Shown here: positions 10,201 to 28,391 of the stretch, piece by piece
Layout: every line of letters starts with the position of its first letter
Position numbering within the stretch: position 1 is the first letter of the stretch
Source: an uncultured Bacteroidota bacterium
Lineage (GTDB): Bacteria; Bacteroidota; Bacteroidia; Flavobacteriales; Flavobacteriaceae
DNA length: 46,408 nt
Reading direction: 5' to 3'
Assembly: GCA_902586435.1 (NCBI GenBank)
Contig: CACIHJ010000008.1
Span: 1-46,408 of the forward strand
The notes under the pieces: generated by a model
Told to the model about the DNA's origin: nothing
Database searches by the model: none
The model's input: only the letters and a program-made list of their open reading frames with translations
Program-made: the position numbers and the translations under genes

Positions 10201-10392
10201 ATGCAAGGTACTGTTAAGTTTTTCAACAATTCAAAAGGCTACGGATTTATCACTGATGATGAAACAGGTAAAGATTGTTTCGTTCACATTAACTCTTTAA
10301 ATGGAGTTGAAATTAAAGAAGGTGATAAAGTAGAATATGAACAGGAAGAAGGACAAAGAGGTGTTCAGGCTACTAACGTTAAGTTAGCTTAA
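10201..10392 (+). CDS. Cold-shock domain protein
   Basis: The 63-residue single cold-shock domain has RNP1 KGYGFI (residues 12-17) and RNP2 DCFVHI (25-30), the nucleic-acid-binding motifs of CspA-type RNA chaperones. It is one residue type away from the canonical RNP1 KGFGFI. It has its own upstream -7 box and no close neighbour on the same strand. Which paralogue it corresponds to cannot be decided from sequence. Confidence 0.95.
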   Translation: MQGTVKFFNNSKGYGFITDDETGKDCFVHINSLNGVEIKEGDKVEYEQEEGQRGVQATNVKLA

Positions 10393-10492: not shown

Positions 10493-10735
10493 TCAAATAA
10501 ATATTTGATATAAGATTATATGTATTCCAAGGATTATAATAGTCCAGAGCATTACTCCTGTAAATTCTTTCTTTTTAAAAAAGACTGACCATATTATTGA
10601 TGACAAGATGTATACAGCAACTACTGTAACAATTGCATTAGGAACAATATATTCAATCGCATTATTTGTTAGGAATGAAACTAAAAAGGCAATAGTTATA
10701 ACTAATACGAAATTTCTTTGTTTTATATTTATCAT
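10493..10735 (-). CDS. Small hypothetical membrane protein
   Basis: The 80-residue frame has three hydrophobic segments separated by short charged turns (FFKKKEF in the middle). It lies 21 bases after the haloperoxidase gene on the same strand, so it may be the last gene of that operon. I recognise no family. It could be a chance frame, but its membrane-helix pattern and placement favour a real gene. Confidence 0.5.
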   Translation of the reverse strand: MINIKQRNFVLVITIAFLVSFLTNNAIEYIVPNAIVTVVAVYILSSIIWSVFFKKKEFTGVMLWTIIILGIHIILYQIFI

Positions 10736-10756
10736 ATATCAGTATTAAATTTTATT

Positions 10757-12136
10757 TTAATTCTGCACAACTTCCTGATTACTAATAAGTGAATTTAGAT
10801 TTCGGGAAATATATTCTCCAATTTTTTCTCCTTGATCAACACCATAATCTATAGCCATTCTGTAATGAATTCCACCATAAAGTCTTGATATTGCAGCCTC
10901 ATCTGCAGCTTCCATAAAAGAATTAAACGATCTTACCGGTAGACCATACTTTACTTCCGTTGTATCATCAAATCCAAAATCGTCTCCATAAATTTTAGTT
11001 AGCACAACAGCAGAAGCTTTTGAGATTACAGAGTGGCCTGATGTATATTCAGGAAATGGTGGAGTCTGAAGCTTTGGAAGCCATTCTTCGTCTATGTATT
11101 TATTTATTAATGTCTCTGGTCTAACAACCAAAGTATTCCATTTAGTGTCCCAACATGAAATAAATCCATCAAACAGTGCAATTGAAACTTGTAAATAAGA
11201 ATTGATTGCCTCATCAAAACTATCATTAGCTAATTCAGTTGCAATTTTTGTAATTCCAATCCAGTGGCCTCCTGGAGTAATTTTCTTAATTGCAAACATA
11301 GCATGACCTTTATGATAAGAAACGTATGGATTACAGTCCCAAAAAGCAGCTATCTTAGCCTCTTCACTCTCGTTATTATCTTCTGTGACTTGCGCTCCTA
11401 ATCTATACACTTCCATTAACTCATTGTAAAATTTACTACCTCTTCTCATATCTATTGCAAGTGGTGCTGGTGGATTAAATATATCAACAGATGATATTAC
11501 CATAGGTCTTATCTTATTCCAATGAGGCTCTATACCCTCCATATAATCAGGCGGAGTTGGCTTCCAATATTTGTCATCTTTTTGAATTGTATATTTTGGA
11601 TATGTTCTTGTCTGCTTGTAAAAATCATTGTCAGCCCATCTTAAAATTTCGTTTGCAACTATTTCACCATATTCAATAGATTTATTTAGTTCTCTTCTAG
11701 ATAGTCCCTCTTCTCTTAGCTCTTTGTATAAATTTTCGCGATAGGCATCAATCTTATTCTCTGAAAAAATTAATTCCTTTCCCACAACTAAAAATGCATG
11801 AAGTGCAGCAAGATTAGGAATTATATTTGGGTCTGAATAATCTGATACATCAATATAATCTGTTAACTGACCCTCTAGACTCATATACTTATTAGGATGT
11901 TTTTTCTGAATAATTGAGTAAGCTGCTATAGTAGGATACACATATACCCTAGATGCAACAGGTGGTGAAAAGATATCATATACTACTACATCTGTTAGTT
12001 GTTGCATAGCTTCATTGAACAATGCTGTATCGTTTAGACGATCTAAATATCGATTATCTGTCTTACAACTATTTAGAAATAATAATAATGAAAACAGAAA
12101 TGCGCAAAAAATAGTTTTACTATTAAATTTAACCAT
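10757..12136 (-). CDS. Vanadium-dependent haloperoxidase-like lipoprotein
   Basis: The 459-residue protein has a lipoprotein signal with lipobox LNSC (Cys24). All three vanadate-binding motifs are intact: Lys332-x6-Arg339-Pro340, Ser366-Gly367-His368 in PEYTSGH, and Ser417-Arg418-x5-His424, with Asp430 following. These match vanadium haloperoxidases, which use H2O2 to oxidise halides, and the related acid phosphatases (PAP2). It lies 19 bases after the third VCBS/ASPIC lipoprotein, implying the same operon and an exported, membrane-attached enzyme. Halide or phosphatase specificity cannot be read from sequence. Confidence 0.88.
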   Translation of the reverse strand: MVKFNSKTIFCAFLFSLLLFLNSCKTDNRYLDRLNDTALFNEAMQQLTDVVVYDIFSPPVASRVYVYPTIAAYSIIQKKHPNKYMSLEGQLTDYIDVSDYSDPNIIPNLAALHAFLVVGKELIFSENKIDAYRENLYKELREEGLSRRELNKSIEYGEIVANEILRWADNDFYKQTRTYPKYTIQKDDKYWKPTPPDYMEGIEPHWNKIRPMVISSVDIFNPPAPLAIDMRRGSKFYNELMEVYRLGAQVTEDNNESEEAKIAAFWDCNPYVSYHKGHAMFAIKKITPGGHWIGITKIATELANDSFDEAINSYLQVSIALFDGFISCWDTKWNTLVVRPETLINKYIDEEWLPKLQTPPFPEYTSGHSVISKASAVVLTKIYGDDFGFDDTTEVKYGLPVRSFNSFMEAADEAAISRLYGGIHYRMAIDYGVDQGEKIGEYISRNLNSLISNQEVVQN

Positions 12137-12155
12137 TATGCAAATTTATAGTTTT

Positions 12156-15100
12156 TCAATTAGATTTAAAGAGGTAGCTATTATTGTTGTTTCCAATAAT
12201 TATAAAAGTATCATTATTGACTTTATCAATATGTCTTCCTTCAAAATTTATTGGTAACATTAAAGACCTATGTGAACTATAAGTATCACCATTAAATCCT
12301 GTTAATACTCCTCCAGGATTAGAATATGAAGGTCCTAGCTCACTAACATAACCGCTGAAATTTCCAACATAATAAATCTTATCATTATCTACATAAAAGT
12401 CTTCGATTGTAGAAAACTGTAGCTCTTTAGGAAGGGGTAAAGAGATAAACTTATTTTCTTCACCTTGCATAAAAGCCATAGATCTCATTTCAACAACAGA
12501 TTTTGTTTCAAAAATCTTATTTCTTTCAGTTAAGGAAACAATGTCTTTAGCATTTACAAAGTCATTGTATTTCAGAAACTTTTTTTTAAGGTAGGGTAAT
12601 GAACTAACTAATTTATCTCTTGATGCGAAAGGAACTTGATCTCCAAAAAAACTATAAAATATAATTGGATCTAAAGATGAGTTTTCATCAAAATCATCTA
12701 AATAAACAACTACTGGCGAACTTTCAGATGCATGCCATTTATGATTCAATCCAGAATTTCCAGCTATAATATCTAGTTTTCCATCATCATTTAAGTCTAC
12801 TATTTCAACTGTGTTCCAAAATCCTGCGGTATTTCCTAATCCATAATTAGTAGTTTGATTAGAAAAACTATCTTCTCCTTCACCAATAAGCACAGTTACA
12901 GGCATCCAATCTCCTACTACAACAAGATCTAAGATACCATCATCATTCAAGTCTGCGAATTTACTATCAGTAACCATTCCTAATGGAGCTTGAGCTATAG
13001 CTTCAAAGTATGCGTCTGATTCAGGAGAACTTTTTACAATTACACTTGTTGGAGATAGTCCATACCCCCCTGGGATAGATCTACTTCCAATAAATAAGTC
13101 AGGGAATTTGTCATCATTAAAGTCAGATGAACTAATTGAACCTCCATTGGTACTTGGTAAATTTGCAGGAAACTTGTTAAACTTGCCCTTACCATCATTA
13201 ATATATAATCTATCCATCAGATTGCTATCTCCATCAACAAATTCATTACCTCCACTCATAACATATATATCTAGGTCTCCATCTAAATCAAAGTCAAAGG
13301 CATCTGCATCGACATCTTCAAATAAAGCGTCTTGACTAAAAATTCTATTCTTAAGAGATTCAAAACTACCATCAGACTTCTGGATTAATAATTGAGAAGA
13401 TTGTTGTCTAGCACCACCAATAAATATATCCTTAAGCCCATCTCCATTGAAATCAGCTCCAACATATGCAGGCCCTTCAATGGATAGTCTTTCAGGCATT
13501 AAGGGCTCTCTCTCATAATCAAGATAACTATTTTCAATATGTTTAAAACCTAAAGGATTCATTTCAAAATGTTTGTTTTTTGTTATATTTTCCTCTTGAG
13601 TTTTGCCAATATTTATAGGATTAATTTGGTGAATCTGATTAGTTTTTAAACCAGAGTATTTCTTGTAATTACCATTCAACCATTTTACATGAACAGAGTC
13701 AATACTTTTTAAATCATCTAATCCAAAATGAACCCTTGGCGAGGAAGTTGATGCAAAACCTCTAGCATTAGTAATCTCCCTTGTGATTTCTTTTTCACCT
13801 GAAAAAATAATCACTTTTGCTCCAATGGCATTAGAACCATATTTGTTCAATACATTAAACTGAACAAATGATCTATTTAATTTTTCAGATTTATTTTCTA
13901 AAATCTGAGCCTCATCATTAATATTATTTGAAACTATATCTAAATCACCGTCATTATCTAGATCTGAAACCGCTGCACCATTTGAATATGAAGGAGGTAT
14001 TCCACTTAACTCATCTAACATAATAAATTCAAGAGGATTGTCTTGCAAGAAGACTGTATTAGAAAGCTTTAGCATTGGCATTTCTTCAATTAAGTCTTTC
14101 TCAAGCTTATCTTCTTCTTCAGCTCCATAGTTATCATATAAAACATTACTTTGAAAATTTATAAAGTCCAGATCATTTGGTCTTTTATAAATTCCATTAG
14201 TTATAAAGATGTCAGTATCATTGTCATTATCAAAATCTTCTAACAGAACAGACCAACTCCAATCTGAAGCGTAAGTTCTAGATGCCAATGCTACTTCTTT
14301 GAAAACTCCTTGCTCTGTTCCAAGTTGCATGTGATTTCGGGCCAACTGTTCATTATATCCATAATCCTTCTTTATCTGAGAAACTTTGTCAGAATCTTCA
14401 CCTCCTGATTTCATAAAAATATCTGCTTTATAAGGCATCATATCAAGTGTAAATATGTCTTGAATTTGATCACTATTAATATCTGCAATATCAACCCCCA
14501 TTGTAAATCGACTAGTATGACTTAATCTTTCTTTAGAGACCTCTGAAAACGTTTTGTCTCCATTGTTTAGATAGAGATAATCATTCTCATGAAAATCATT
14601 ACCAACATAAATATCTACATAGCCGTCATTATTAACATCAACAGTAGCAATAGCTAATCCATATCCAAGAGCACTAGAATAAATTCCTGCTTTACTAGTT
14701 ACTTCAGTAAAATTTAATATTCCTTCATCTAAAAGATTTTCATAAAGCCTATCCCCTGATTTGTTATCTCTTTCTTTTCTTTTTTCTGAACTACCATAAT
14801 TTCTTGGAGTATGAACTGTATGGTTCAATAGATATACATCCAAATCACCGTCATTATCATAATCAAAAAAGCTTGCATGTGTTCCAAATCCTTTAAAATC
14901 TAAGCCTACATCCTTAGATTTTTCTGTAAAAGTTAAGTCGCCATTATTAATATATAACCTATTATGTCCTTTAAGATTTTTATAGTCACTTACTGTTGAA
15001 ACATAAATATCAATCAATCCATCATTATTAATATCTGCCATACTTACACCATTTGACCAATAACCTTCTAAATCTAATCCAGCACTTTCAGTTATATTTT

Positions 15101-15401
15101 TAAAAACCATATTCCCTTGGTTTAGATACAATTCATCCCTTACTTCATTTCCTGAAAAATATATATCATCAAAACCATCATTATTAATATCTCCTATACC
15201 TACACCTCCCCCATTGTAATAATATAGATATTCAATAATATTCATATCCGAATCAGATCTTAGGCTATTATTGAAATAAACTCCTGTTTTATCAGAACTT
15301 AAAGCATCAAACTTGAGATCATTGCTACTCTTGTTATCTTGATTATTCTTTAAGTTGCATCCTATAATTAAAAGGATAAATAAATAATAATATCTAATCA
15401 T
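12156..15401 (-). CDS. VCBS/FG-GAP-repeat lipoprotein with ASPIC/UnbV domain (paralogue 3)
   Basis: The 1081-residue lipoprotein (lipobox LIIGC, Cys15) has many FG-GAP/VCBS blades with DxNxDG-type Ca2+ loops, such as GDINNDGFDDIYFSGN near the N-terminus. An ASPIC/UnbV domain lies at about residues 510-585 (conserved NARGFAS and HFGL), followed by a second set of blades and a C-terminal segment with RDKLVSSLPYLKKKF. The architecture matches CRTAC1-family proteins, which are predicted beta-propeller surface proteins without known enzymatic activity. It overlaps the preceding paralogue by 8 bases and precedes the haloperoxidase. Binding of a substrate or partner is inference. Confidence 0.92.
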   Translation of the reverse strand: MIRYYYLFILLIIGCNLKNNQDNKSSNDLKFDALSSDKTGVYFNNSLRSDSDMNIIEYLYYYNGGGVGIGDINNDGFDDIYFSGNEVRDELYLNQGNMVFKNITESAGLDLEGYWSNGVSMADINNDGLIDIYVSTVSDYKNLKGHNRLYINNGDLTFTEKSKDVGLDFKGFGTHASFFDYDNDGDLDVYLLNHTVHTPRNYGSSEKRKERDNKSGDRLYENLLDEGILNFTEVTSKAGIYSSALGYGLAIATVDVNNDGYVDIYVGNDFHENDYLYLNNGDKTFSEVSKERLSHTSRFTMGVDIADINSDQIQDIFTLDMMPYKADIFMKSGGEDSDKVSQIKKDYGYNEQLARNHMQLGTEQGVFKEVALASRTYASDWSWSVLLEDFDNDNDTDIFITNGIYKRPNDLDFINFQSNVLYDNYGAEEEDKLEKDLIEEMPMLKLSNTVFLQDNPLEFIMLDELSGIPPSYSNGAAVSDLDNDGDLDIVSNNINDEAQILENKSEKLNRSFVQFNVLNKYGSNAIGAKVIIFSGEKEITREITNARGFASTSSPRVHFGLDDLKSIDSVHVKWLNGNYKKYSGLKTNQIHQINPINIGKTQEENITKNKHFEMNPLGFKHIENSYLDYEREPLMPERLSIEGPAYVGADFNGDGLKDIFIGGARQQSSQLLIQKSDGSFESLKNRIFSQDALFEDVDADAFDFDLDGDLDIYVMSGGNEFVDGDSNLMDRLYINDGKGKFNKFPANLPSTNGGSISSSDFNDDKFPDLFIGSRSIPGGYGLSPTSVIVKSSPESDAYFEAIAQAPLGMVTDSKFADLNDDGILDLVVVGDWMPVTVLIGEGEDSFSNQTTNYGLGNTAGFWNTVEIVDLNDDGKLDIIAGNSGLNHKWHASESSPVVVYLDDFDENSSLDPIIFYSFFGDQVPFASRDKLVSSLPYLKKKFLKYNDFVNAKDIVSLTERNKIFETKSVVEMRSMAFMQGEENKFISLPLPKELQFSTIEDFYVDNDKIYYVGNFSGYVSELGPSYSNPGGVLTGFNGDTYSSHRSLMLPINFEGRHIDKVNNDTFIIIGNNNNSYLFKSN

Positions 15402-18400
15402 ATAAATATTTAAATTGAACTAATGAATTCGAATTTCTTCCAACAATAACATTTGAATTTGAGAATATTAAAGAGCGTACTTCTCCATTTACATTAAAAC
15501 CATAGCCATCAGATGGAATTTCAAAAATACCTTTTCCATTATTTTCTAAAAAAACACCAAAACTTGCATCATATCTGCCAATTTCTGGTTTTGTTTTATA
15601 AAGATTTCCCCCTGCTATAACATCCATATCTCCATCTTTATCAAAGTCTTGAATCAAAAAAGAATATATTGGAGAAAATTGTGCTTTTTGCGGTAATTCA
15701 TAAAATATAAACTCACCATTTCCTTTATTTATAAAAACTGAACTTGCTAAGATATTAACGTCTAGTTTAAGACTTTCTTCGATCTGTAAAGCACTAAACA
15801 TATCATTAATACTGGCTGACCGAAAAGATTTATAATTTGGAAAAACTTTCTTAAGAGGCTTCATCTGATCAATTAAATTATGTCTTAAATCATATGGATA
15901 AAACTTTCCATTTTCACGTTTAAAAGTCAATACAGGGTCTAACTGCTCATTTCTATCATAATCATTAAGGTATAGTCTTATTGGGCTTTTTTCATTTGCA
16001 TTAAATCGAGAATTAAGTCCATGATTTCCAACAATTATATCCATTAACCCATCTCCATTAAAGTCAGCTGAATCAATTGTTTGCCACCACCCCTTATAAT
16101 TAGTCAAATTTGATGAACTAGAAGTGAATTTTCCACTCTGATTATAAAATAGATTTATTCCCATAAATTCTCCTACAACAATTAAATCTTCATCATTATC
16201 ATTATCAATATCAACAAAGATGGCATCTGTAATCATTCCAAGATTAAGAAATTCGGAGGCATTATCTTTAGTTACATTAGTAAAAGAACCTTCTCCATTA
16301 TTAAAAAGCAAAACTCCTGAACCAGGCAAACCATATGAATCGGAAATTAATCTTTCTCCAACAAATAGATCTAAATCTCCATCACCATCAACATCAGATA
16401 CTTCTACAGTTCCTGAATTAAAAAAATCTATCTCGGTTGGAAGTTTATTTTCACTTAAACTAAAGTTTCCCTTTCCATCATTAATGTATAATTTGTCTTC
16501 AAGAAATGACATAAACCTTGAAAACTCTACTCCTCCATTTGCAGTATATAAATCTAGGTCTCCATCACCATCAGCATCAAAAAAAAGAGGTTCAATTATT
16601 TCTCTAGGAAGCTCTTCCATTAACTCAAATGACTCAATTAATTTAAGATTTTGTTCTTCCCATTTAAACATTCTACTTTTATTGTCCTTTGAACCCGGAA
16701 TTAAGATTTCTTCTAAACCATCACCATTTATGTCTCCTTTTATAATTTTTGGTCCAGGGGTACTTAACATATGAGGTAATAATCTGTTTTTATTAAAATC
16801 AATAAAAATATTTTCAGCATGTGAAAAATTCATGTCTGAATTTAATCTTTCAAACAAAGCTTTGGAGATAATTTTAGTTTTGTTATTAGATTCAGAATAG
16901 TCAACATCTGACTGTGAAATTGAAATAATTTGATTTATTTCTACATTATCAAAATTACTTTTTAAACCATTAGTCCATGTTACCTCTATATCAACGTTAT
17001 TTTTTGTTGGGAGACCAATATGAGGACGAAGATCAACACTAGATTGGAAACCTCTAGTTGGCTGATGTTGGGTATAATAATAATTTAATCCATCATAAAC
17101 TCTAATTTGTGTTCCAATAGCCATAGTATTCTTCCCAATACCTTTTAAATCAAATTGAATATAATTTCCAGAATCTTTCTTATCGGTGTGATTTTCATAA
17201 ACAAAAGAAGGCATATTAACATTGTTTACTACAAGATCTAAGTCACCATCATTATCTAGATCCCCATAAGCAGATCCATTTGAAAAACTTGGATCAAGAA
17301 GACCTGTATTTTTATCATTTTCAAATCTTAAATCTCCTAAATTTATATATGCATGATTTTTAACTGGTCTAGATGGGATTATTTCAACTAAACTTGCATA
17401 GTCCACCTCTTCATTTGAAAAAATTGACATTAAAACCTGTTCGCTTGAAACGTATTGCAAATAATCTTGATCAGTTAAATCACGATATATACCATTAGCA
17501 ATAAATAAGTCTCTGAGTCCATCATTATTCATATCAAAGAAAAGAGCTCCCCAGCTCCAATCAGAGGCTTCTACACCTGCTAATCTACCTATTTCACTAA
17601 ATGTATCGTCTCCATTATTAAGTTGTAGAGTATTTCTTGTGAACTGATGATAATATCCATTATCTACATTGTATTTATACTTGTCCCAATTTTCAAAAGT
17701 GGTTACTGATTTTAAACGTTCGTACTCAGATGGCAGCATCTCTGTGACAAAGATATCAGCCATTCCATCATTGTCAATATCTGCCATATCAGCTCCCATT
17801 GAAGCAGCACTAATTGATGAAATAGCGTCAGTTAATTTCTCACTAAAAGTTCCATCTTGATTATTAATATATAAATAGTCTCTTTCAAAAAAATCATTTG
17901 AAACATAAATATCTTCCCAACCATCAGAGTTAACATCCCCAACAGTAACTCCAAGTCCAAAGCCAATCACAGAACCATATATCCCAGATTTTTCACTCAC
18001 ATCAATAAATTTTCCATTTTGATTTTCTAATAACTTATCACCCCCGTCTTTATCTCTCTTTGGTCTTTCATTTCTTCTTAGATCAAAGCTTCCAATAGCT
18101 TGATAAGAATTATTTAGAAGATAGACATCTAAATCACCATCTTTATCATAATCAAAAAAACTAGCATGAGTTGAATAGCCTGGATCAGCTAGTCCATATT
18201 CTAATGCTTCTTCTTTAAAAGTAAGATCACCCTGATTAATAAATAATTCGTTTTGTTTATTATCTCCCTCCACATCTCCAGAATTACAAACATATATATC
18301 AAGAAGACCATCACCGTTTATGTCAACCATAGTTACACCTGTCGACCATGCTCTAGCCCCAACAGTACCAGATTTTTCCGAAATATTTTCAAACTTAAAA

Positions 18401-18672
18401 TCTCCTTTATTTAGATATAACTGATTAGGTTTTTGATTAGCTGTAAAATAAATATCTTGTAACCCATCATTATTGATGTCTCCTATAGATACCCCTCCAC
18501 CATTATAAAAGTTTCTATAAGTATAAACATTAAATTTTTGGTCAAATGTTAGTGTATTTTCAAAGTTAATATTAGTATCAGAAAAAGATTTCAATTCAAA
18601 AACAAAGTCATTTTTGGTTTGACAACTAGTGAAAAAAACTATAGATAATAAAATTATTAGATGTCTTTTCAT
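15394..18672 (-). CDS. VCBS/FG-GAP-repeat lipoprotein with ASPIC/UnbV domain (paralogue 2)
   Basis: This 1092-residue paralogue of its two neighbours has lipobox FFTSC (Cys17). The first blade begins NFYNGGGVSIGDINNDGLQD. The ASPIC/UnbV domain lies at about residues 500-580 (PTRGFQS, PHIGL), followed by more Ca2+-loop blades such as DADGDGDLDLYTANGG and the segment RHNLIDQMKPLKKVFPNY near the C-terminus. The start is 1 base after the 190-aa lipoprotein gene ends, so translation is probably coupled. It overlaps the next paralogue by 8 bases. Confidence 0.92.
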   Translation of the reverse strand: MKRHLIILLSIVFFTSCQTKNDFVFELKSFSDTNINFENTLTFDQKFNVYTYRNFYNGGGVSIGDINNDGLQDIYFTANQKPNQLYLNKGDFKFENISEKSGTVGARAWSTGVTMVDINGDGLLDIYVCNSGDVEGDNKQNELFINQGDLTFKEEALEYGLADPGYSTHASFFDYDKDGDLDVYLLNNSYQAIGSFDLRRNERPKRDKDGGDKLLENQNGKFIDVSEKSGIYGSVIGFGLGVTVGDVNSDGWEDIYVSNDFFERDYLYINNQDGTFSEKLTDAISSISAASMGADMADIDNDGMADIFVTEMLPSEYERLKSVTTFENWDKYKYNVDNGYYHQFTRNTLQLNNGDDTFSEIGRLAGVEASDWSWGALFFDMNNDGLRDLFIANGIYRDLTDQDYLQYVSSEQVLMSIFSNEEVDYASLVEIIPSRPVKNHAYINLGDLRFENDKNTGLLDPSFSNGSAYGDLDNDGDLDLVVNNVNMPSFVYENHTDKKDSGNYIQFDLKGIGKNTMAIGTQIRVYDGLNYYYTQHQPTRGFQSSVDLRPHIGLPTKNNVDIEVTWTNGLKSNFDNVEINQIISISQSDVDYSESNNKTKIISKALFERLNSDMNFSHAENIFIDFNKNRLLPHMLSTPGPKIIKGDINGDGLEEILIPGSKDNKSRMFKWEEQNLKLIESFELMEELPREIIEPLFFDADGDGDLDLYTANGGVEFSRFMSFLEDKLYINDGKGNFSLSENKLPTEIDFFNSGTVEVSDVDGDGDLDLFVGERLISDSYGLPGSGVLLFNNGEGSFTNVTKDNASEFLNLGMITDAIFVDIDNDNDEDLIVVGEFMGINLFYNQSGKFTSSSSNLTNYKGWWQTIDSADFNGDGLMDIIVGNHGLNSRFNANEKSPIRLYLNDYDRNEQLDPVLTFKRENGKFYPYDLRHNLIDQMKPLKKVFPNYKSFRSASINDMFSALQIEESLKLDVNILASSVFINKGNGEFIFYELPQKAQFSPIYSFLIQDFDKDGDMDVIAGGNLYKTKPEIGRYDASFGVFLENNGKGIFEIPSDGYGFNVNGEVRSLIFSNSNVIVGRNSNSLVQFKYLYD

Positions 18673-18673
18673 T

Positions 18674-19246
18674 TTATTTAATAAGGTTTGGATATTTATA
18701 TCTTAAATCAAGCAATTGAGCTCTAACATCTTTTTCATCTATAATATGAATTAATATCTGTCTATTTCCATCTATTTTAACAAATGTCTTATTTGGAAAA
18801 TTTTCATTTTCAATAGAAATAAAGTTATTTCCTGGATACCATTCCATAAGTTTATCCATAGCAACTGGAAGGACTTTATCAGATTGCAACTCTTCATTCC
18901 AAGGGGCCCAACCTAAAAAATAAAATCGCATATCTAAGCCAGTCATTATATCATTTTCATTAAATATTCCATAAAATAAATGATTTACTCTCTTACCTTC
19001 AGGCATATTTTCTATTTCATATGCTATAAATTCATTATTAGGACCATGGGTTACCTTTCCATCAGCATTTAGCTCCCAAGCTTTTGTAAAAAAAGTTTTT
19101 TTCGTATCCCCTATTGTAAGACCAAACTGCACAGAATCAGTATATACTCCTCTAGCCATTTCATCTTTTACGATTCGTTCATATTCTGAGACATTTTGAC
19201 AAGAAATAATTAATGCAATAAAAAATATATATAATCTATTTAACAT
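18674..19246 (-). CDS. Lipoprotein of unknown function between VCBS paralogues
   Basis: The 190-residue protein has a lipoprotein signal (lipobox IISC, Cys16). I do not recognise a family. The mature part has a mixed alpha/beta look with a conserved-looking segment GLDMRFYFLGWAPWNEELQ. Its start overlaps the end of paralogue 1 by 11 bases and it ends 1 base before paralogue 2, so it is tightly embedded in the operon. It may be an accessory subunit of the surface complex; this is inferred from position alone. Confidence 0.85.
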   Translation of the reverse strand: MLNRLYIFFIALIISCQNVSEYERIVKDEMARGVYTDSVQFGLTIGDTKKTFFTKAWELNADGKVTHGPNNEFIAYEIENMPEGKRVNHLFYGIFNENDIMTGLDMRFYFLGWAPWNEELQSDKVLPVAMDKLMEWYPGNNFISIENENFPNKTFVKIDGNRQILIHIIDEKDVRAQLLDLRYKYPNLIK

Positions 19247-22200
19247 ATTTAGTTATAATCTTTGAATTTGAAATTCCAGTTACTAAAAGTAGTGAATCAG
19301 ACGATTTTAATGATGGTACTATAGTAAAATCTCTAATTTCCCCATAAATGTTTAATGGTAATAATTTATCAAATTTTGTTTTTGAATTGTCGTCACCATA
19401 AAGGATCCATCCTTTTGATGCATCAAATGCACCATACTGAGGTTTAACTAGATATTGATTTCCACCTAAGATTAGATCATTAAAGCCATCTTGATTTATA
19501 TCAAAAATATTAATAGCGTGCACACTTGAATACTGAATTTCTTCTGGTAAAAGTTTCTTAGAATATGAAAGAGGTGAATCTGACATAAATAATAAACTCC
19601 TTGTCTCTTTTATTTCCAATACTTGAGATGAAGATATTTGGGTTTCATTAAATATATCTTTAATTGATTGATTAGCATAATCTTCATAATAAAGTAGTTT
19701 CTTTTTCAGATCTGGTAATTGCTTAATCAGTTCATCTCTGTCATGGATAGGAAAATCTTTATTATCAATGCTATATGTATAAATAGCCTCTAATTTTCCA
19801 TTTTGATCGTAATCATTCAGGTATAGTTTCATATTAGGTTTATATAGACCATTTTGCCCCATATTTCCTAAAACAAGATCTGGAACTCCATCTCCATTTA
19901 AATCAGATGTTTCTATAGACTGCCACATTCCATTTGTTTCTTCGAATCCAATACTTTCAGAAATAGACTCCCAACTGGATTCATTATTTAAAAAAGCAAG
20001 AATTGGCATCCATTCACCAACAACGATCAAATCTCCTTTTTCATCAGAATTAAGATCTGTGAATTCTATATCGGTTATCATACCAATATTTTGAAACTCT
20101 GGAGGATAAGTAGCTTCAAAACTACCGTTTCCTCTATTTATCATTAAAGAAATAGATCCAGGAATTCCATAGGTGTCTACATTAAATCGTTCACCTATAA
20201 ATATATCTAATAATGCATCATTATTAGCATCACCAATAGCAATAGCTCCAGTACTAAAGAATTTAGAGAAATTTAATGCAGATGAATCATATATAAATTT
20301 ACCTGATTCATTTCTATAGAATCTATCATTAAGAGTTCTAGATAATGTAGAATATGCTTTACCCCCAGAGGCAACATACAAATCTTGATCTCCATCATTA
20401 TCAGCATCAAAAAAAACAGCTTCAACATCCTCAGATTCTTTATGTAAATCAAATGGTTTACTAACTTTTTTAAAACCATTTGTATCACTTAAAAAAAGCT
20501 GACCTGTTTGCCCTTTAGCTCCTCCTATATAAAAGTCTTGAATACCATCATTGTTAAGATCATAATTAGCTATACATGGCCCCTCATTAGAGAACATATG
20601 AGGTAATAACCTCTCAGAATCAAAATCAACATAATAATTCTCATCATGCTTAAAATCAATTAATTGTTGACCTTCTGTTTTTTTTATAATAAAAGTAGGC
20701 TTAGGATCTACAGATTCAGATTGTAAATTATCCCGATCTATTTCTAATATTTGATCAATTTGAATATCTCTTATGACTGAACGCTTTCTATCAGGCCAAT
20801 ATATTTCTAAGGAATCTAATGAATTTACTTTACCAAGTCCAAAATGAAGTCTATATGGAACAGAGCTTTGAAAGCCTCTAGAAGGAAATTGTTCAATCAT
20901 AATTTTATTTCCATCTGTTAAATAAGCAATAGCCTTTGCCCCTATAGCAAATTTATTTGGACCGTTATCTCTAAGAATAACTGAAAGAAAATGATGATTT
21001 TCAACTTCAGAGTGGTTCTCAAATATGAAAGCTTCAGAATTTACATTATTAACAACTAAGTCTAGGTCTCCGTCATTGTCTAAGTCACCATATGCAGAAC
21101 CATTACTAAAACTAGGTTGGTTTAAACCCCAACCCAATCTTTTATCTGAAAAGGTAAAATCACCATTATTTCTAAACACTGAATTTGTAACAGCTTTAGA
21201 GGGCATTAAGTCGATTAAATCTGTAATAACTTCTTTTCCTTCTCTTAATATTTGACTAATCTGTTCATCATTAGCATAATAATTTAAATAATCACGATCT
21301 AACAAATCTTTATATATTCCATTACTGATATATACATCTTTATAACCATCATTATCCATATCAAATAAAAGTGCAGCCCAACTCCATTCTGTTGCAGATA
21401 AACCAAGTTGCCTTCCTACTTCATAAAATGTGTTACCTAAATTTCTTTGAAGAGCATTTCTAGGATATTGCTTATGATATCCTTTAGATCCTGCTAGAGT
21501 AAATTTATCATACGATTCATACACTTGTTTGTTTTTTTGCCTTGATAGAGTTTCTGGTAACATTTCAGTAACAATTAAATCAGGTATCAAATCGTTATCC
21601 ATATCTGCTGCATCAGCACCCATAGAGCCCATTGACAATGCATCAAAATAAGTTAATGATTCTTCTGAGAATCCATCTCCATTATTATTTAAATACAAGT
21701 AATCTTTTTCAAAAAAATCATTAGAAATAAATAAATCAGGCCAAAGGTCTCCATTGAAATCAGATAAAGTTATCCCTAAGCCAAATCCTATATTTGAAGA
21801 GAATATACCCTTATCTGAAGATACATTCTCAAACTTATTATTCCTATTCTCCAAAAGTTGATTTCCATCTTGACTAGGAATATTTCTTTGCCCTTCAATC
21901 AAATCGTAACTCCCCACAGATCGAATTGAATTGTTTAAAACATATGCATCTAGATCAAGGTCACCATCATAATCAAAGAAAGCAGCATGCACAGATAGTC
22001 CTTCAATATCTAAACCGTATTGAGATGATGATTCCTTAAAAGTTAAGTCTCCATTATTTATAAAAAGTTCATTATGTCTATTCTCGCCTCCGGGTTTTCC
22101 AGATTTGGTTACATATAAATCTAATAATCCATCTTGATTTATATCAACAAATGTAGCTCCTGTAGACCAATTATCTTTACATGATACACCTGCAAAATCA

Positions 22201-22487
22201 GTTATATCATCAAATTTCCAATTTCCTTTATTTAGATATAGAGCATTATCTACAATATTACCAGTGAAATATATATCAATTAATCCGTCATTATTAATAT
22301 CTCCCAGAGCTACTCCACCACCATTAAAAAAATTACGATATGTATATGGATTAAAATCCTCAGTATAAGAGAGTAAGTTATTGAAAGAAATCCCAGTATG
22401 ATCTGATAATTTTTTTTCAAATCTTGAATCAATATTATTACATGAAACTAGACAGAGAGTTAACAATATTAGAGACCTATATCGCAT
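19236..22487 (-). CDS. VCBS/FG-GAP-repeat lipoprotein with ASPIC/UnbV domain (paralogue 1)
   Basis: The 1083-residue lipoprotein (lipobox LVSC, Cys16) is the first gene after the susD terminator. Its blades carry DINNDGLIDIYFTGN-type Ca2+ loops. The ASPIC/UnbV domain lies at about residues 495-575 (PSRGFQS, LHFGLG), with a second blade set and the C-terminal segment RDELIKQLPDLKKKLLYY. It shares its domain order with paralogues 2 and 3, consistent with tandem duplication. It is likely displayed on the cell surface beside SusCD. Confidence 0.92.
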   Translation of the reverse strand: MRYRSLILLTLCLVSCNNIDSRFEKKLSDHTGISFNNLLSYTEDFNPYTYRNFFNGGGVALGDINNDGLIDIYFTGNIVDNALYLNKGNWKFDDITDFAGVSCKDNWSTGATFVDINQDGLLDLYVTKSGKPGGENRHNELFINNGDLTFKESSSQYGLDIEGLSVHAAFFDYDGDLDLDAYVLNNSIRSVGSYDLIEGQRNIPSQDGNQLLENRNNKFENVSSDKGIFSSNIGFGLGITLSDFNGDLWPDLFISNDFFEKDYLYLNNNGDGFSEESLTYFDALSMGSMGADAADMDNDLIPDLIVTEMLPETLSRQKNKQVYESYDKFTLAGSKGYHKQYPRNALQRNLGNTFYEVGRQLGLSATEWSWAALLFDMDNDGYKDVYISNGIYKDLLDRDYLNYYANDEQISQILREGKEVITDLIDLMPSKAVTNSVFRNNGDFTFSDKRLGWGLNQPSFSNGSAYGDLDNDGDLDLVVNNVNSEAFIFENHSEVENHHFLSVILRDNGPNKFAIGAKAIAYLTDGNKIMIEQFPSRGFQSSVPYRLHFGLGKVNSLDSLEIYWPDRKRSVIRDIQIDQILEIDRDNLQSESVDPKPTFIIKKTEGQQLIDFKHDENYYVDFDSERLLPHMFSNEGPCIANYDLNNDGIQDFYIGGAKGQTGQLFLSDTNGFKKVSKPFDLHKESEDVEAVFFDADNDGDQDLYVASGGKAYSTLSRTLNDRFYRNESGKFIYDSSALNFSKFFSTGAIAIGDANNDALLDIFIGERFNVDTYGIPGSISLMINRGNGSFEATYPPEFQNIGMITDIEFTDLNSDEKGDLIVVGEWMPILAFLNNESSWESISESIGFEETNGMWQSIETSDLNGDGVPDLVLGNMGQNGLYKPNMKLYLNDYDQNGKLEAIYTYSIDNKDFPIHDRDELIKQLPDLKKKLLYYEDYANQSIKDIFNETQISSSQVLEIKETRSLLFMSDSPLSYSKKLLPEEIQYSSVHAINIFDINQDGFNDLILGGNQYLVKPQYGAFDASKGWILYGDDNSKTKFDKLLPLNIYGEIRDFTIVPSLKSSDSLLLVTGISNSKIITKYVK

Positions 22488-22526
22488 ATTGTAAAATTAG
22501 ACAATTTTAGCTTGGTTTTAAAAACA

Positions 22527-22552
22527 AAAAGGCCACCAAATGGTGGCCTTTT
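22527..22552 (-). terminator. Strong intrinsic terminator between susD and the VCBS genes
   Basis: A near-perfect palindrome, AAAAGGCCACCA/TGGTGGCCTTTT, forms a 12-pair stem with a GC-rich core. In the susD direction it is followed by T5-G-T5. It lies between the susD stop and the first VCBS gene, which share orientation, so it would separate abundant susCD mRNA from lower downstream expression by partial read-through. The 39 bases beyond hold only a weak -7 candidate (TAATTTTA). Confidence 0.85.
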
Positions 22553-22573
22553 ATATTATTCAAAACTTAAGAA

Positions 22574-24175
22574 TTAATATCCTGTGTTTTGAGATAGACT
22601 TGAGTTTGCAGTAAGCTGCTCCGATGGTATCGGGAAAACAGTTCTGTAAGCATCAGAATTTGTTTTTTCCCACCAAGAATCATTCCACTTACCAAAACGG
22701 ATAAGGTCTGTTCGTCTCGAAGCTTCTTGGAACATTTCACGGCCCCTTTCTGCTAAAAACTGCTCAGCAGTTAACGAGCTCAGAGCTGATACATTAGCTC
22801 TTGCACGAATTGCATTAACTTCTGGAAGAGCTAAAGCCCAATTTCCAGCTGCTCTAGCCGTAGCTTCAGCATGCATTAAGTGAACATCACCTAATCTAAC
22901 AATCGGATAATCATTATCTAGATTTGGTCTTGCAAATTGTTTAAAAGCAAATTTTCCAAGACGATACCCACCAGTTCGAGCACCATTTGGCTCAAGTTCA
23001 TTTATTCCTATTGAATAGACAATCTCTGGTGTTGGAGAATCTGAAGCAAGATCTACTAATGCATTTCCACCATAATCTAATTGTGGACCAGCAATAAAGT
23101 TTGCTTTTCTTCTATCATCCCCTGCCTCATATGAATTCACGAATTCCTCTAGTGCAACATAACCATTCCAAGGTTGAGCCTCAAAATTCCATGTATACTG
23201 AGAAGCATAGTGAAGAGTCATATGATGGAAATTCATACCACCTGCAGTTGCTTCATCATATTCAACAGACCAAATAATTTCTGGATTGTTTTCATTATTA
23301 GGAGCAAATATTGCAGCGTATCCTACCAAATTATCAGGATCAGACGAAACCGCTGGTCTCTTTCCTAGATTAGGAACTGATATACCACTATCAGATAATG
23401 AATAAGGTCCATTATCGATAATATGTCCTGCTGCAGCTGCTGCATCAGAATATCTTTCAGTTCCAGTATATACCCCAGCATTTAGATATAATTTAGCTAA
23501 AATACCAAGTGCAGAATACTGGTTAATTCTATACTTTACATCATTAGTACCTAAAGATGAATTTGATAGACCTGATAAATCAAAAGAAGATCCCATTCCT
23601 AAAGCAGAAAGTAATTCTCCTTCTACCCAATTAAAAACTGCTGACCTAGATGATTGATTAGAAGATCCTGATCCATCAGCAATAACGATATTACCGTATA
23701 AATCCATTAATCTCCAATGCAAATAAGCACGGACTACTTTAGCTTGTGCCATTTGGTTAGCATCTAACCCTGCATTACTAATTGCATTATTTACCTCAGC
23801 TATTGAACCATATTGTTGAGACCAAGTCCCAGTAACTGGACCATTAGCAGGAGTAAAAGTGTGACGATGCATTTCAAGCCAAATACCACCATCATACCAG
23901 TCACCTCCCTTTTGAGTAATAGCCATTTCATCAGATGAAACTGACTGTACAGAGAAATATCCACCATGATTAGCAGTTCCAGCATTTCTAACAGCGTTAA
24001 ATACTCCTGTTAGAGCATCACCACCCCCACCAGAACCTCCTGTAGAAATTCCTTCTAGAGAGAAGTCTGATGTAAGATCTCCTAAGAGTTCTTCTTCAAG
24101 ATCAGTACAAGAATAGGTAATACCTATTAAACCGATTCCTAATATAATTTTATTTATAGTTTTCATAGACTTCAT
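22574..24175 (-). CDS. SusD/RagB-family outer-membrane lipoprotein
   Basis: The 533-residue lipoprotein has lipobox TYSC (Cys23) followed by TDLEEE, an acidic stretch like Bacteroidota surface-export signals. The RagB/SusD fold is indicated by the N-terminal TPR-like half (AKVVRAYLHWRLMDLYGN) and the C-terminal segment LMHAEATARAAGNW, NAIRARANV and ERGREMFQEASRRTDLIRFG. SusD caps the SusC transporter and captures ligand. It lies 3 bases after susC. The ligand is unknown; no glycoside hydrolase accompanies it here. Confidence 0.95.
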   Translation of the reverse strand: MKSMKTINKIILGIGLIGITYSCTDLEEELLGDLTSDFSLEGISTGGSGGGGDALTGVFNAVRNAGTANHGGYFSVQSVSSDEMAITQKGGDWYDGGIWLEMHRHTFTPANGPVTGTWSQQYGSIAEVNNAISNAGLDANQMAQAKVVRAYLHWRLMDLYGNIVIADGSGSSNQSSRSAVFNWVEGELLSALGMGSSFDLSGLSNSSLGTNDVKYRINQYSALGILAKLYLNAGVYTGTERYSDAAAAAGHIIDNGPYSLSDSGISVPNLGKRPAVSSDPDNLVGYAAIFAPNNENNPEIIWSVEYDEATAGGMNFHHMTLHYASQYTWNFEAQPWNGYVALEEFVNSYEAGDDRRKANFIAGPQLDYGGNALVDLASDSPTPEIVYSIGINELEPNGARTGGYRLGKFAFKQFARPNLDNDYPIVRLGDVHLMHAEATARAAGNWALALPEVNAIRARANVSALSSLTAEQFLAERGREMFQEASRRTDLIRFGKWNDSWWEKTNSDAYRTVFPIPSEQLTANSSLSQNTGY

Positions 24176-24178
24176 GAT

Positions 24179-27097
24179 TTAAAATTTATAGTTTATACCA
24201 AGTGTGAATGAACGTGCAGAATAATAACTATTTCTACGGTCTATACCTGGAGCAAGCGGATTCCCATCTAAAAGATCGAAAAGAGCAGGCTCAGGATCAG
24301 AACCAGTATAATCAGTAATTACAAATGCGTTCTGAACATTCAGTGATAAATTCATATTATCATTAACTTGACGAGATATTGTTAAGTTATCCAGCTTAAA
24401 GAAATCTGCTTCCTCTACATATAAAGAAGAGAAGTTTGCATTTTTAATTTCCGGATTAGCTAACTCAGTATTTACATAGTTATATGATTTCTGAGAACCA
24501 ACTCTTGGCTCATAGAAAGCACGGAAAGTATTAACAAGACTATGTCCGAATGCTCCTCTAAAAAAAGCATTTATAGTGTAGTCACCAATAGTGATTTGAT
24601 TAGACCAACCTATTTCTAGATCAGGAATACCACTACCAAGAACATCAAAGTCTACATTGTCATCTAAAGCATTGTTCTGACCAACTACTAATTCTCCATC
24701 TCCATTAACATCTTTAAAGTTTTGTGAACCATTAGTAACACTTCCATCCCAAACAGGACCCCAGATTTGACCAACTTGTTCACCTACTTTTACACGTGTA
24801 ACCCATGTACTATTTTGACCAGGAGCACCCAGGTTTCCAAATTTATCAGAATCCTGAACATATTCATCCAGAACAACTTTGTTACTAGATAAAACTATTC
24901 CTGTGTTATAGTTATCAGTAACATCGTAGTTAACTGATAGTTCAAATCCATTAGATGAAAGCTGTCCTGCATTTTCAAATCTTCTATCAAATCCATAAAC
25001 AGCAGCATCTACAACACGATTTATGATAAAGTCCTTAGAGGTTTGCTCATAAATATCAAGTGTAGCTGAAAGACGATCCATAGTTAGATCTATACCAAAG
25101 TTTAACTCAGTTTTTTCTTCCCATTTTAAGTCTGGATTAGCTGCTCTTAAAAGGTTTGTTGAACCTCCTGCAGAGCCACCTCCACCCCAAGACCATCCTC
25201 TGATTTCTTGAGAAAGACCAACTTGACCTGGTAAATTACCAGTAACACCATAAGATATACGTGGCTTTAATTGCTGAACTCCACTAAGACCAAGTATAGG
25301 AGCAAGGTCAGCACCCATACTAATAGCTGGGAACGTTCCATACCTATTATCAGCACCTAGTCTTGTAGAACCTTCTCTACGAATAGATGCATTTAAAAAG
25401 AAATTATTATTCCAAGTCAAATTAACACGAGCAAAGAAAGCATCAATCTCTGTATCAGGATTTCTCCCAGAGTTTGCGATAACATTACCAGCGTTCAATA
25501 AATCTTGAGAATATTCTATTGCATCAATATAATCTATTTCATCACCTGGAAAATCACCTAAAGCAAAAAATGCTTCGTTATAATTTTCTTTTTGATATGA
25601 GTAACCTGCTGTAACGACTAGATTCATATCATCAGTTGACTTTTTCCATGAACCGTAAAGTTCATTTAATTGGAATTCGCTGTTATTCTCATAGAATTCT
25701 GCAGCACCTTTTCTAACTGGTGAATCTGCACCTCCATAATCGTTAGAACTATTCCAAAGTGAAGTTGTTCTAAAATAAACACGATTTGCATAGTCTGAAG
25801 ACTGACGAGCAGAACGGAAATAAGCTGTTATATTATCTGATACATCGTATGTAAGATTAATACCATAGTTTAATTCTCTACGCTCTCCATTATTTAAGTT
25901 TTGTTTGATAATAGAAACTGGGTTATACGAATCGAATAAACCTAAAGTTTCATAATATCCTCCAAACTGAGCACCATTAAAAGCATAAGGTGCATCAACA
26001 GCATAAACTGGAGCAGTAGGGTTATAAAGTGTTGCATAACGCATGGACTCTTTAAAACCATTTTTCTGATCTCTTTGAGTAAATGAAGTATTAAAATCAA
26101 TCTTTAACCTATCATCTAATGCTGTAGTTGAAAAGTTTAAACGAGTGTTAAACTGATCAAACCCACTGTTAAGAAGTATACCTTCAGCTTCACGAAGATT
26201 AGCAGATACTCTATAATTTGTTTTTCCATTTCCACCAGTAGCAGAAACATTGTGAATTTGAGTAAATGCATCACGTGTTACTTCATCTAACCAATCTGTT
26301 TGAGAAGATAGATCTCGTCCACCTGAAGCAATAAATTCTTGAGGAGACATAGTATCAATCTGATTTAGAATACTAGATGAAGATAATTGTCCAGAGTATG
26401 TAAGTTGAGCTGCGCCAACTCCTCCTGATTTAGTTGTAACAATTATTACCCCAGATGATCCTCGAGAACCATATATTGCAGCTGCAGAAGCATCTTTTAA
26501 TACGGTATAACTCTCAATATCACTAGGATCAACATTGTTAAGGGAAGCCCCAACAACGCCGTCAATTACTACAAGAGGAGAAATATTTGCACCTAAACTT
26601 GATAGACCACGAAGACGAATAACAGTTCCTGCATTCGGGTCACCACCTCTATTATATATCTGCAAACCAGCTACTTTTCCTTGTAAAAGTTGAGAGGCAT
26701 CATTTATTGCCCCCTGGTTAAATTCTTCAGCACTAATAGAAGTTACCGCAGAGGTAATTTCTTTTTGTTGCTGAGAACCATATCCAGTAACCAACACTTC
26801 TTCAAGTTCATTAGAAGATTGCAGAACTATATTTATTGTATTCTGGTTGCCCACTGTTATTTCTTGTGCAGTATAACCTACATAAGAAAAAACTAGAACA
26901 TCTCCAGCGCTTGCAGATATGGAATAATTTCCATCAAAATCTGCAACGACACCAGTAGTAGTTCCCTGAACTACCACAGTAGCTCCAGGGAGTGGACCAG
27001 TTTCATCTGAAACATTACCAGAAACCTGTTGAGCACTCAGCATTCCACTAAAAGCAATAGTAAATGCGAGACTCAATTTTAGTAAATTTAGTTTCAT
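24179..27097 (-). CDS. SusC/RagA-family TonB-dependent transporter
   Basis: The 972-residue protein has a cleavable signal (cleavage after about Ala22), a CarboxypepD_reg-like domain (about 24-92), a TonB-box-like ELEEVLVTGYGSQ (97-109), a plug domain (about 113-225, with LLQGKVAGLQI and RLRGLSS) and a beta-barrel ending in FTLGINYKF. It imports large ligands through the outer membrane with SusD. It has its own strong promoter at 27125-27154. At 972 residues it is near the short end for SusC proteins. Confidence 0.96.
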   Translation of the reverse strand: MKLNLLKLSLAFTIAFSGMLSAQQVSGNVSDETGPLPGATVVVQGTTTGVVADFDGNYSISASAGDVLVFSYVGYTAQEITVGNQNTINIVLQSSNELEEVLVTGYGSQQQKEITSAVTSISAEEFNQGAINDASQLLQGKVAGLQIYNRGGDPNAGTVIRLRGLSSLGANISPLVVIDGVVGASLNNVDPSDIESYTVLKDASAAAIYGSRGSSGVIIVTTKSGGVGAAQLTYSGQLSSSSILNQIDTMSPQEFIASGGRDLSSQTDWLDEVTRDAFTQIHNVSATGGNGKTNYRVSANLREAEGILLNSGFDQFNTRLNFSTTALDDRLKIDFNTSFTQRDQKNGFKESMRYATLYNPTAPVYAVDAPYAFNGAQFGGYYETLGLFDSYNPVSIIKQNLNNGERRELNYGINLTYDVSDNITAYFRSARQSSDYANRVYFRTTSLWNSSNDYGGADSPVRKGAAEFYENNSEFQLNELYGSWKKSTDDMNLVVTAGYSYQKENYNEAFFALGDFPGDEIDYIDAIEYSQDLLNAGNVIANSGRNPDTEIDAFFARVNLTWNNNFFLNASIRREGSTRLGADNRYGTFPAISMGADLAPILGLSGVQQLKPRISYGVTGNLPGQVGLSQEIRGWSWGGGGSAGGSTNLLRAANPDLKWEEKTELNFGIDLTMDRLSATLDIYEQTSKDFIINRVVDAAVYGFDRRFENAGQLSSNGFELSVNYDVTDNYNTGIVLSSNKVVLDEYVQDSDKFGNLGAPGQNSTWVTRVKVGEQVGQIWGPVWDGSVTNGSQNFKDVNGDGELVVGQNNALDDNVDFDVLGSGIPDLEIGWSNQITIGDYTINAFFRGAFGHSLVNTFRAFYEPRVGSQKSYNYVNTELANPEIKNANFSSLYVEEADFFKLDNLTISRQVNDNMNLSLNVQNAFVITDYTGSDPEPALFDLLDGNPLAPGIDRRNSYYSARSFTLGINYKF

Positions 27098-27124: not shown

Positions 27125-27154
27125 CAAATATATGGATAATATGCTCAAAACCAA
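27125..27154 (-). promoter_or_regulatory. susC promoter with -33 and -7 boxes
   Basis: On the minus strand TTG is followed by exactly 19 bases and then TATATTTG, matching the Bacteroidota sigma-ABfr pattern (-33 TTG, -7 TAnnTTTG). The -7 box lies 27 bases before the susC ATG. This is the best-formed promoter I see in the window and suggests high basal susCD expression. No sigma/anti-sigma or hybrid regulator gene is adjacent. Confidence 0.75.
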
Positions 27155-27262: not shown

Positions 27263-28144
27263 TTACGAATTTAACATTGAAGCTACTTCATAATTATTAA
27301 TTTTAGGAACTGCACCATTTTTTGTTGTTGTAATTGCTCCGTATGCTGAGGCTAGTCTTAATGAACTTTTTAAATTGTTTTTTTTAATAAATAATTCATC
27401 AATCAATGCAGCTAAAAAATTATCTCCGGCTCCCACATTATCGATTGAATCTACTTTAAATGAATTAGCTATTTCAAAATTTTTACCATCATAAATCATT
27501 GATTCAATTTCTCCATTTGTCACACATACATATTTCAGATCAAATTGTTTTAAAATTTTAAAAATTAAATTTTGAGTGTCTGAAATATTAAATTTAAATA
27601 ACTGATTAATTAGTTCTAGTTCCTCTAGATTTACTTTTAAAAAATCTGCTGAATTAACTAGAGAGCTTACTTTTTCAAAATCATAATAACTCTCTCTTAT
27701 ATTTAGATCCAGAATGTTAAATTTTGATTGTTTAGTTAATTCTTTAAGCGTTTTAAATGATTCTATATTTCTAGATGCAAGTGAACCATAGACTAGTATA
27801 TCCAAATCACTTAAAATCTCATCATAGGAGGCCTTAAGCGGAATGAAGTCCCAAGCTACATTTGATAAAATTTTATATGAAGGTTCGCCATTTTTAAGGG
27901 TAATAATCACACTTCCAGTCTCATATTTCTCATCTATATTTAAAAATTTGTTACTATAATTATTCTGATTAAAGTATTCAAGAATCTCATTACCAAGTTT
28001 GTCATTTCCAATTGATGAAATAAAGTCAACATTATTTCCGAGATTATGAAGTCTAGCAAAAACATTGAATGGGGCACCCCCAATTATTTTTTTATCTGGA
28101 TAGAGATCCCATAGAACTTCTCCGAAGCAAACTATACTTATCAT
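27263..28144 (-). CDS. PfkB-family sugar kinase (fructokinase-like)
   Basis: I place the start at the ATG at 28144 (MISIVCFGEVLWDLYP), giving 293 residues; the longer frame to 28210 runs into tRNA-Thr. Features are the N-terminal GGAPFNV motif (22-28) and the C-terminal NVGAGDNFLAAL with the catalytic Asp, as in Bacteroidota fructokinases. It phosphorylates a hexose, most likely fructose. The gene begins only 24 bases after tRNA-Thr(GGT), too close for an independent promoter, so it is probably expressed by read-through from the tRNA operon. It precedes susC on the same strand. Confidence 0.85.
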   Translation of the reverse strand: MISIVCFGEVLWDLYPDKKIIGGAPFNVFARLHNLGNNVDFISSIGNDKLGNEILEYFNQNNYSNKFLNIDEKYETGSVIITLKNGEPSYKILSNVAWDFIPLKASYDEILSDLDILVYGSLASRNIESFKTLKELTKQSKFNILDLNIRESYYDFEKVSSLVNSADFLKVNLEELELINQLFKFNISDTQNLIFKILKQFDLKYVCVTNGEIESMIYDGKNFEIANSFKVDSIDNVGAGDNFLAALIDELFIKKNNLKSSLRLASAYGAITTTKNGAVPKINNYEVASMLNS

Positions 28145-28382: not shown

Positions 28383-28391
28383 ATTAATTTG

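Follow-up and report, generated by a model that had tools for sequence, protein, structure and literature searches.

The DNA analyzed here, referred to below as the window, is the whole 46,408-nucleotide contig CACIHJ010000008.1 (assembly GCA_902586435.1), one complete contig of a 1.02-Mb metagenome-assembled genome (24 contigs, 84% complete) from an uncultured member of the Flavobacteriaceae. On its minus strand, from position 27097 down to 10757, the window carries seven co-directional genes encoding a SusC-type transporter, a SusD-type lipoprotein, a propeller lipoprotein, a 190-amino-acid (aa) lipoprotein (LIP190), two further propeller lipoproteins, and an enzyme with the PAP2 fold that matches a vanadium haloperoxidase. 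We found that these genes are linked across many Bacteroidota families and recur beside genes for sugar uptake and catabolism, and that the locus is probably a sugar-regulated uptake system, resembling a polysaccharide utilization locus (PUL), with a propeller-associated surface iodoperoxidase.

SusC (24179..27097) is a 972-aa TonB-dependent outer membrane transporter with Plug and CarbopepD_reg_2 domains that scored 577.5 bits against TIGR04056 (cut-off, 368), and SusD (22574..24175; 533 aa) is the sole PF07980 match in this assembly. Pfam and NCBIfam thus identified the two genes, which lie 3 bp apart, as the tandem SusC-SusD pair by which PULs are recognized. SusD and propeller 1 are 86 bp apart, and a terminator-like hairpin (22527..22552, minus strand; 11-bp stem, 4-base loop, and T-rich tail) lies between them; the spacings beyond propeller 1 are, in order, an 11-bp overlap, a 1-bp gap, an 8-bp overlap, and gaps of 19 and 21 bp, the last of which leads to an 80-aa open reading frame (ORF). 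Every gene listed in the initial annotation was present on the minus strand, and its description of tight packing after the terminator was borne out, with no gap above 21 bp between the genes from propeller 1 onward. Lipobox-like N termini were found on all three propeller proteins, LIP190, and the enzyme, and these proteins may be located at the cell surface. Pfam detected no cognate carbohydrate-active enzyme among the window proteins scanned, and neither Pfam nor NCBIfam detected a linked regulator among those scanned between 10493 and 28210. The earlier statement that no glycoside hydrolase or regulator is present therefore holds for this interval but not for the relatives, since a glycoside hydrolase family 97 (GH97) gene directly follows the enzyme gene in three same-genus genomes and lies one gene further in a fourth.

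The enzyme gene (10757..12136) encodes a 459-aa lipoprotein (lipobox LNSC) of the ZgVIPO1 family. Residues 18-459 matched the vanadium haloperoxidase ZgVIPO1 of Zobellia galactanivorans (PDB 4cit/4usz) with an E value of 6.2e-143 and 480 bits, while the next PDB match reached only 1.6e-4. When read against what we take to be the vanadate-site motif, K-R-SGH-R-H, the active site is intact (K332, R339, S366-G367-H368, R418, and H424). The same residues were conserved in 91 of 91 ORFs, a set that includes a few duplicates from overlapping stretches, with H424 present in 90 and replaced by a gap in one. Fournier et al. (2014) reportedly found two Zobellia enzymes to be specific for iodide. In the available parts of two papers, the Zobellia enzyme is named an iodoperoxidase (PMC13198595; PMC5064120). 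The window enzyme may, by homology, likewise oxidize iodide in this organism.

Propeller lipoproteins 1 (19236..22487; 1,083 aa; lipobox LVSC), 2 (15394..18672; 1,092 aa; FTSC), and 3 (12156..15401; 1,081 aa; IIGC), the last adjoining the enzyme gene, each contain FG-GAP repeats and one UnbV_ASPIC domain by Pfam, which in propeller 1 stands between FG-GAP regions. They share 38-45% pairwise identity and account for all three ASPIC matches of this assembly. To our knowledge, ASPIC-UnbV propellers have no established role. DxDxDG-type loops, which we presume to be of the calcium-binding kind, are numerous in all three. In a tree of 119 propellers, proteins 1, 2, and 3 fell into separate orthologue clades of 14, 20, and 15 members (support, 0.987, 0.987, and 0.991), and no clade held two members from one locus. 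A single clade of 67 (support, 0.99) took in 40 of the 42 enzyme-adjacent propellers, together with the 10 propellers from enzyme-free same-genus loci. The separate clades, together with the shared enzyme-adjacent clade, suggest that the three paralogues are old and that the genes of the cassette have mostly been passed on together. The predicted structure of propeller protein 2 (pLDDT, 84.4; pTM, 0.85) had the murine CRTAC1 crystal structure 9etn as its top structural match (Z, 40.6; 465 aligned residues; rmsd, 2.5; 22% identity), and Foldseek and sequence-profile E values against CRTAC1 were 6e-25 and 9e-22, respectively. We rejected a sugar-enzyme assignment for the second propeller of this protein (about residues 604-1092): its match to aldos-2-ulose dehydratase (4a7z; Z, 28.8; 10% identity) permits no functional inference because unrelated propellers score equally well (LGI1, 31; KICSTOR, 29.5). 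A GN-x-G-x-N motif within the second propeller, at about residues 880-890 of protein 2, kept in all three paralogues as judged by eye and partly invariant in a 35-sequence alignment, may be a binding site.

All 10 further same-genus stretches (L121-L130) carried SusC-SusD-propeller without the enzyme, followed by GH20 in each of the three that were scanned; locus L121 also has an acyltransferase-like membrane ORF with no Pfam match. Since propellers pair with SusC and SusD (SusCD) in these enzyme-free loci, we consider them to be general SusCD partners, for which a ligand-binding role is more likely than an oxidase-specific one.

Among 60 relatives searched, 12 had an enzyme match, 9 of them strong, and one or more propellers lay near the enzyme in all 9. 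The order SusC-SusD-propeller 1-LIP190-propeller 2-propeller 3-enzyme was complete in three genomes (G016, G017, and G035) and runs into a contig end in G009. Genes for a xylose isomerase, a xylulokinase-like protein, and an SSF symporter lie between propeller 3 and the enzyme in G035. A second set comprised 80 loci from named genomes and is dominated by near relatives, because these are the best 80 of at least 584 confirmed relatives. A propeller was present in 51 of these loci and a propeller or SusCD in 56; with the 14 loci that have less than 3 kb upstream set aside, the counts were 47 and 52 of 66. The order propeller-LIP190-propeller-propeller-enzyme recurred in 15 of the 80 loci. In 4 of the 80 (L051, L068, L096, and L102), a SusC-SusD-propeller-LIP190 block and the enzyme gene are divergently oriented yet still linked, and thus the linkage survives rearrangement.

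The initial annotation had proposed that co-occurrence be checked across Bacteroidota, and for this we used an evenly drawn sample of 198 genomes. The enzyme model matched 55 of them. Matches scoring 340 bits or more, a threshold set where the scores visibly drop from 341 to 246 bits, numbered 60 and came from 43 genomes. ASPIC proteins occurred in 97 genomes, including all 43 with the enzyme (Fisher test, 1e-16). An ASPIC domain lay within 10 kb of 44 of the 60 enzymes, compared with about 1.4 expected, where proximity was scored by eye and the expectation assumes random propeller placement. Since the P value ignores shared ancestry, the size of the effect matters more. The earlier proposal of a single system is thus upheld as far as conservation of the neighborhood is concerned, also in the divergent loci, and these comparisons support treating the genes as a single conserved system.

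A connection to sugar metabolism was not visible to the initial annotation and is seen through relatives. When the 62 same-strand genes directly downstream of the enzyme were scanned with Pfam, 25 proved to be sugar linked: 7 sugar-type MFS transporters, 6 trehalases, 5 SSF proteins, 4 FGGY kinases, and 3 GH97 enzymes. Sugar-gene clusters, named from sequence with representatives checked by Pfam/NCBIfam, were enriched beside the enzyme (22 of 50 adjacent genes, compared with 54 of 507 ORFs elsewhere in the 80 loci; Fisher test, 2e-8), 5 of 55 downstream genes lying outside the comparison set. NCBIfam identified a kojibiose hydrolase among the representatives (1101 bits, above the cut-off), along with trehalase, glycerol kinase, and xylose isomerase, and the neighbors of the enzyme gene in relatives include those for GH97, trehalase, GH65, glycerol kinase, sugar transporters, and LacI. 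In L051, genes for LacI, the enzyme, and a sugar-type MFS transporter are consecutive on one strand, and LacI also precedes the enzyme in L068. Trehalase lies directly 3' of the enzyme in L053, L062, L081, L094, L095, and L098; in the first three of these, the stretch examined holds no propeller or SusCD pair. Upstream of SusC, the window contains a gene for a PfkB-family sugar kinase (27263..28144, minus strand; PF00294), with its start codon picked inside a listed ORF (27263-28210) that overlaps a tRNA, and genomes G017 and G008 (L027 and L038) likewise have PfkB, together with an MFS sugar transporter, upstream of SusC. Because genes for taking up and breaking down sugars recur as partners, we regard the locus as PUL-like.

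Within the genus, GH97 scored above the cut-off in 4 of 25 genomes, which are exactly the four other carriers of the enzyme and have GH97 near it, and in none of the other 20 (Fisher test, 9e-5). The combination of glycerol kinase and alpha-glycosidases offers a lead, no more, toward glycosylglycerol-type solutes. The site of GH97 is covered by the window contig, and GH97 is absent there. Because SusCD, the propellers, and the enzyme have been kept here while the glycosidases were apparently lost, this genome provides evidence, within its 84% completeness, that the set can stand without them.

Propeller and haloperoxidase are also brought together in a second haloperoxidase class, which numbers at least 14 enzymes in the 198-genome sample. 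Four proteins of 1335-1356 aa from three same-family genomes (L131-L134) combine FG-GAP, UnbV_ASPIC, and haloperoxidase-type domains with a type IX secretion tail. Their haloperoxidase domains correspond to DUF6851 and VCPO_2nd (VCPO-like), with scores that straddle the cut-offs, and all four proteins carry the haloperoxidase motifs K..RP, SGH, and SR..GGIH without variation. Another second-class enzyme (L140) is joined to FG-GAP repeats but lacks ASPIC, and four, which were chosen for their side-by-side matches, are preceded by an ASPIC propeller gene at a distance of 0-687 bp; a 1302-aa enzyme of this class (L139) has no propeller within the protein. A search for the full-length fusion in the 198 genomes returned separate halves only, as single rows, but at most three candidates were scored per genome, and so this is no proof of absence. 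Given natural fusions in another haloperoxidase class, physical association of propeller with enzyme is plausible here as well.

As a specific account, we tentatively favor a model to which we grant a little short of an even chance, namely, a PUL-like acquisition system in which SusCD and a propeller array work with a ZgVIPO1-type iodoperoxidase that conditions the ligand at the mouth of the transporter. SusC and SusD would import a ligand that most likely contains an alpha-linked sugar. The three CRTAC1-like propeller lipoproteins would form a surface array that holds this ligand and docks the iodoperoxidase, which would turn H2O2 and iodide into hypoiodous acid (HOI) at the transporter mouth; HOI, in turn, would most likely iodinate or oxidize a non-sugar part of the ligand or the ligand matrix. 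We consider a more far-reaching version quite unlikely. It would make the locus a self-sufficient oxidative acquisition machine, in which propellers hold the iodoperoxidase over SusCD and HOI, not a hydrolase, prepares the ligand. Such a machine would have been kept in a streamlined 1-Mb genome without the glycosidase of its relatives, its partnership would have arisen again as secreted fusions, and it would explain at the molecular level how marine Bacteroidota oxidize iodide in a way that depends on sugar and Ca2+.

Several observations weigh against the favored model. Profile searches did not find GH97, GH13, or GH31 in this 84% complete genome, which makes an alpha-glycoside ligand a weak proposition for this organism. 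The next-downstream genes also include GyrI-like genes (11 of 62) and malic enzyme/PTA genes (4 of 62), and it is GyrI-like genes, not sugar genes, that lie 3' of the enzyme in Zobellia-like, Maribacter, and Arenibacter loci. Of the 53 loci whose upstream sequence extends for 9 kb or more, 11 had neither propeller nor SusCD, no ASPIC domain lay within 10 kb of 16 of the 60 enzymes, and the sequences compared share ancestry and are not independent. The GyrI-like product, a small-molecule-binding protein of roughly 300 aa, is encoded directly 3' of the enzyme in L033, L035, L037, L088, L097, L099, L110-L113, L115, L117, and L119.

An unlikely alternative that nonetheless carries real weight is that of a peroxide shield, in which the enzyme would be expressed together with sugar uptake without acting on anything imported, removing H2O2 and making HOI against algal oxidative bursts or competitors in places where algae leak sugars. 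The 11 loci in which the enzyme occurs without propeller or SusCD fit this explanation, and in the available part of one study the Zobellia iodoperoxidase vIPO3 was higher on the brown alga Ascophyllum than on alginate, with algal defense responses described in the same paper (PMC9296495). However, peroxide removal would leave the dedicated propellers, their positional orthology, the fusions, and the divergent linkage with SusCD unexplained. It is decidedly improbable, in our view, that the propellers and enzyme serve iodine accumulation as a sugar-dependent iodide-oxidizing system like that of Arenibacter, with surface oxidation of sugar supplying the H2O2. According to the available part of the Arenibacter sp. 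C-21 report, iodine uptake by this strain requires glucose, O2, and Ca2+, a source of H2O2 substitutes for glucose, and the genome encodes at least five ZgVIPO homologues (PMC5064120). In Arenibacter palladensis (L115), two propeller genes precede the enzyme gene, with an SSS-type gene and SusD upstream. The many DxDxDG-type loops of the propellers would also suit a Ca2+ requirement, provided that our assumed reading of this motif is right. However, the loci yielded no sugar oxidase, and SusCD would be left without a role.

Only a very small chance remains for the explanation that the enzyme dephosphorylates a glycan or lipid ahead of its import. Haloperoxidases and PAP2 phosphatases have a common anion site, and the window enzyme matched PF01569 above the cut-off. 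However, the fourth residue past the catalytic His, at which we take the PAP2 phosphatase motif to have Asp, is Ala428 and is invariant in 10 of 10 sequences. The homology to ZgVIPO1, moreover, spans the whole length of the protein, and the haloperoxidase assignment made in the initial annotation is accordingly favored over a phosphatase. That the genes are merely neighbors in an ancient cluster kept by vertical descent, with no common complex or pathway, accords with the propeller-SusCD pairs that lack the enzyme (L121-L130) but is highly improbable in view of the linkage across many families far above chance, the rearranged yet linked forms, and the fusions.

Of the smaller genes, LIP190 (18674..19246, minus strand; lipobox IISC) had no Pfam or NCBIfam match, yet relatives of it were found in 20 of the 66 loci that extend 3 kb or more upstream (alignment A2, n = 24). 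Its structure was predicted confidently (pLDDT, 90.2), but we dropped any fold assignment, as the best Foldseek match (4ygt; E, 5e-4) had TM scores of 0.33-0.39 and the best VIA Z, 6.0, is in the range of chance arrangements. The 80-aa membrane ORF (10493..10735, minus strand), which lies 21 bp 3' of the enzyme gene, is present on the same strand as had been described, but its inclusion in the system is unsupported and was abandoned because no relative was found among 108 loci searched at E values up to 10. Together with a cold-shock-protein-like gene (10201-10392, plus strand), this ORF fills the position of GH97 in same-genus relatives. A candidate operon promoter, TTG-N19-TATATTTG (27125..27154, minus strand), lies upstream of SusC and matches what we take to be the Bacteroidota-type consensus; taken alone it is weak, because the window contains 5 matches where 1.58 are expected. 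Four tRNA genes (Thr, Gly, Tyr, and Thr; 28168-28565) lie upstream of the locus, where ORFs overlapping them are spurious, and these genes flank the locus together with a recombinase-like ORF (28644-29531), judged by eye. A horizontal island was considered on this basis but not adopted, no search aimed at evidence for one having been made. The G+C content is 0.34-0.36 across SusC and SusD (21001-27000) and about 0.29-0.32 in most of the window.

Among known systems, the window resembles Zobellia in its enzyme. In the Zobellia-near genome G025, whose enzyme is nearly identical to ZgVIPO1, three propeller genes lie directly upstream of the enzyme, as in the window. In contrast to the window, where SusCD and a small lipoprotein belong to the same gene run as the enzyme, the SusCD of G025 lies more than 10 kb away and is 29-33% identical to that of the window, and loci of this type have a GyrI-like gene 3' of the enzyme. 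As in Bacteroidota PULs, SusC-SusD is followed by predicted surface lipoproteins, joined in same-genus relatives by GH97, PfkB, and an MFS sugar transporter; unlike those PULs, the interval lacks a carbohydrate-active enzyme and a regulator, and its enzyme is a haloperoxidase. The window propellers share FG-GAP and ASPIC domains with the CRTAC1/ASPIC-UnbV family but differ in having a second propeller and in being lipoproteins beside SusCD. Arenibacter sp. C-21 is similar in its ZgVIPO homologues, but in the available part of its genome note (PMC5064120) the iodine phenotype is tied to no gene, and haloperoxidase and SusD, which no other paper found by us names together, are mentioned without being linked. 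Our literature search, confined largely to openly accessible papers, found no paper combining haloperoxidase, SusD, and VCBS or combining FG-GAP, SusD, and polysaccharide utilization, and the accessible portions of the sources consulted do not state the physiological role of bacterial vanadium iodoperoxidases for their owners.

SusCD uptake and the sugar genes give iodoperoxidases and ASPIC-UnbV propellers each a concrete, testable hypothesis, for which Zobellia, Maribacter, and Arenibacter are culturable hosts, and the set persists even in a bacterium with a very small genome. If the favored model is true, sea-surface iodine oxidation would be coupled to bacterial sugar uptake, and the marine iodine and carbon cycles would be linked.

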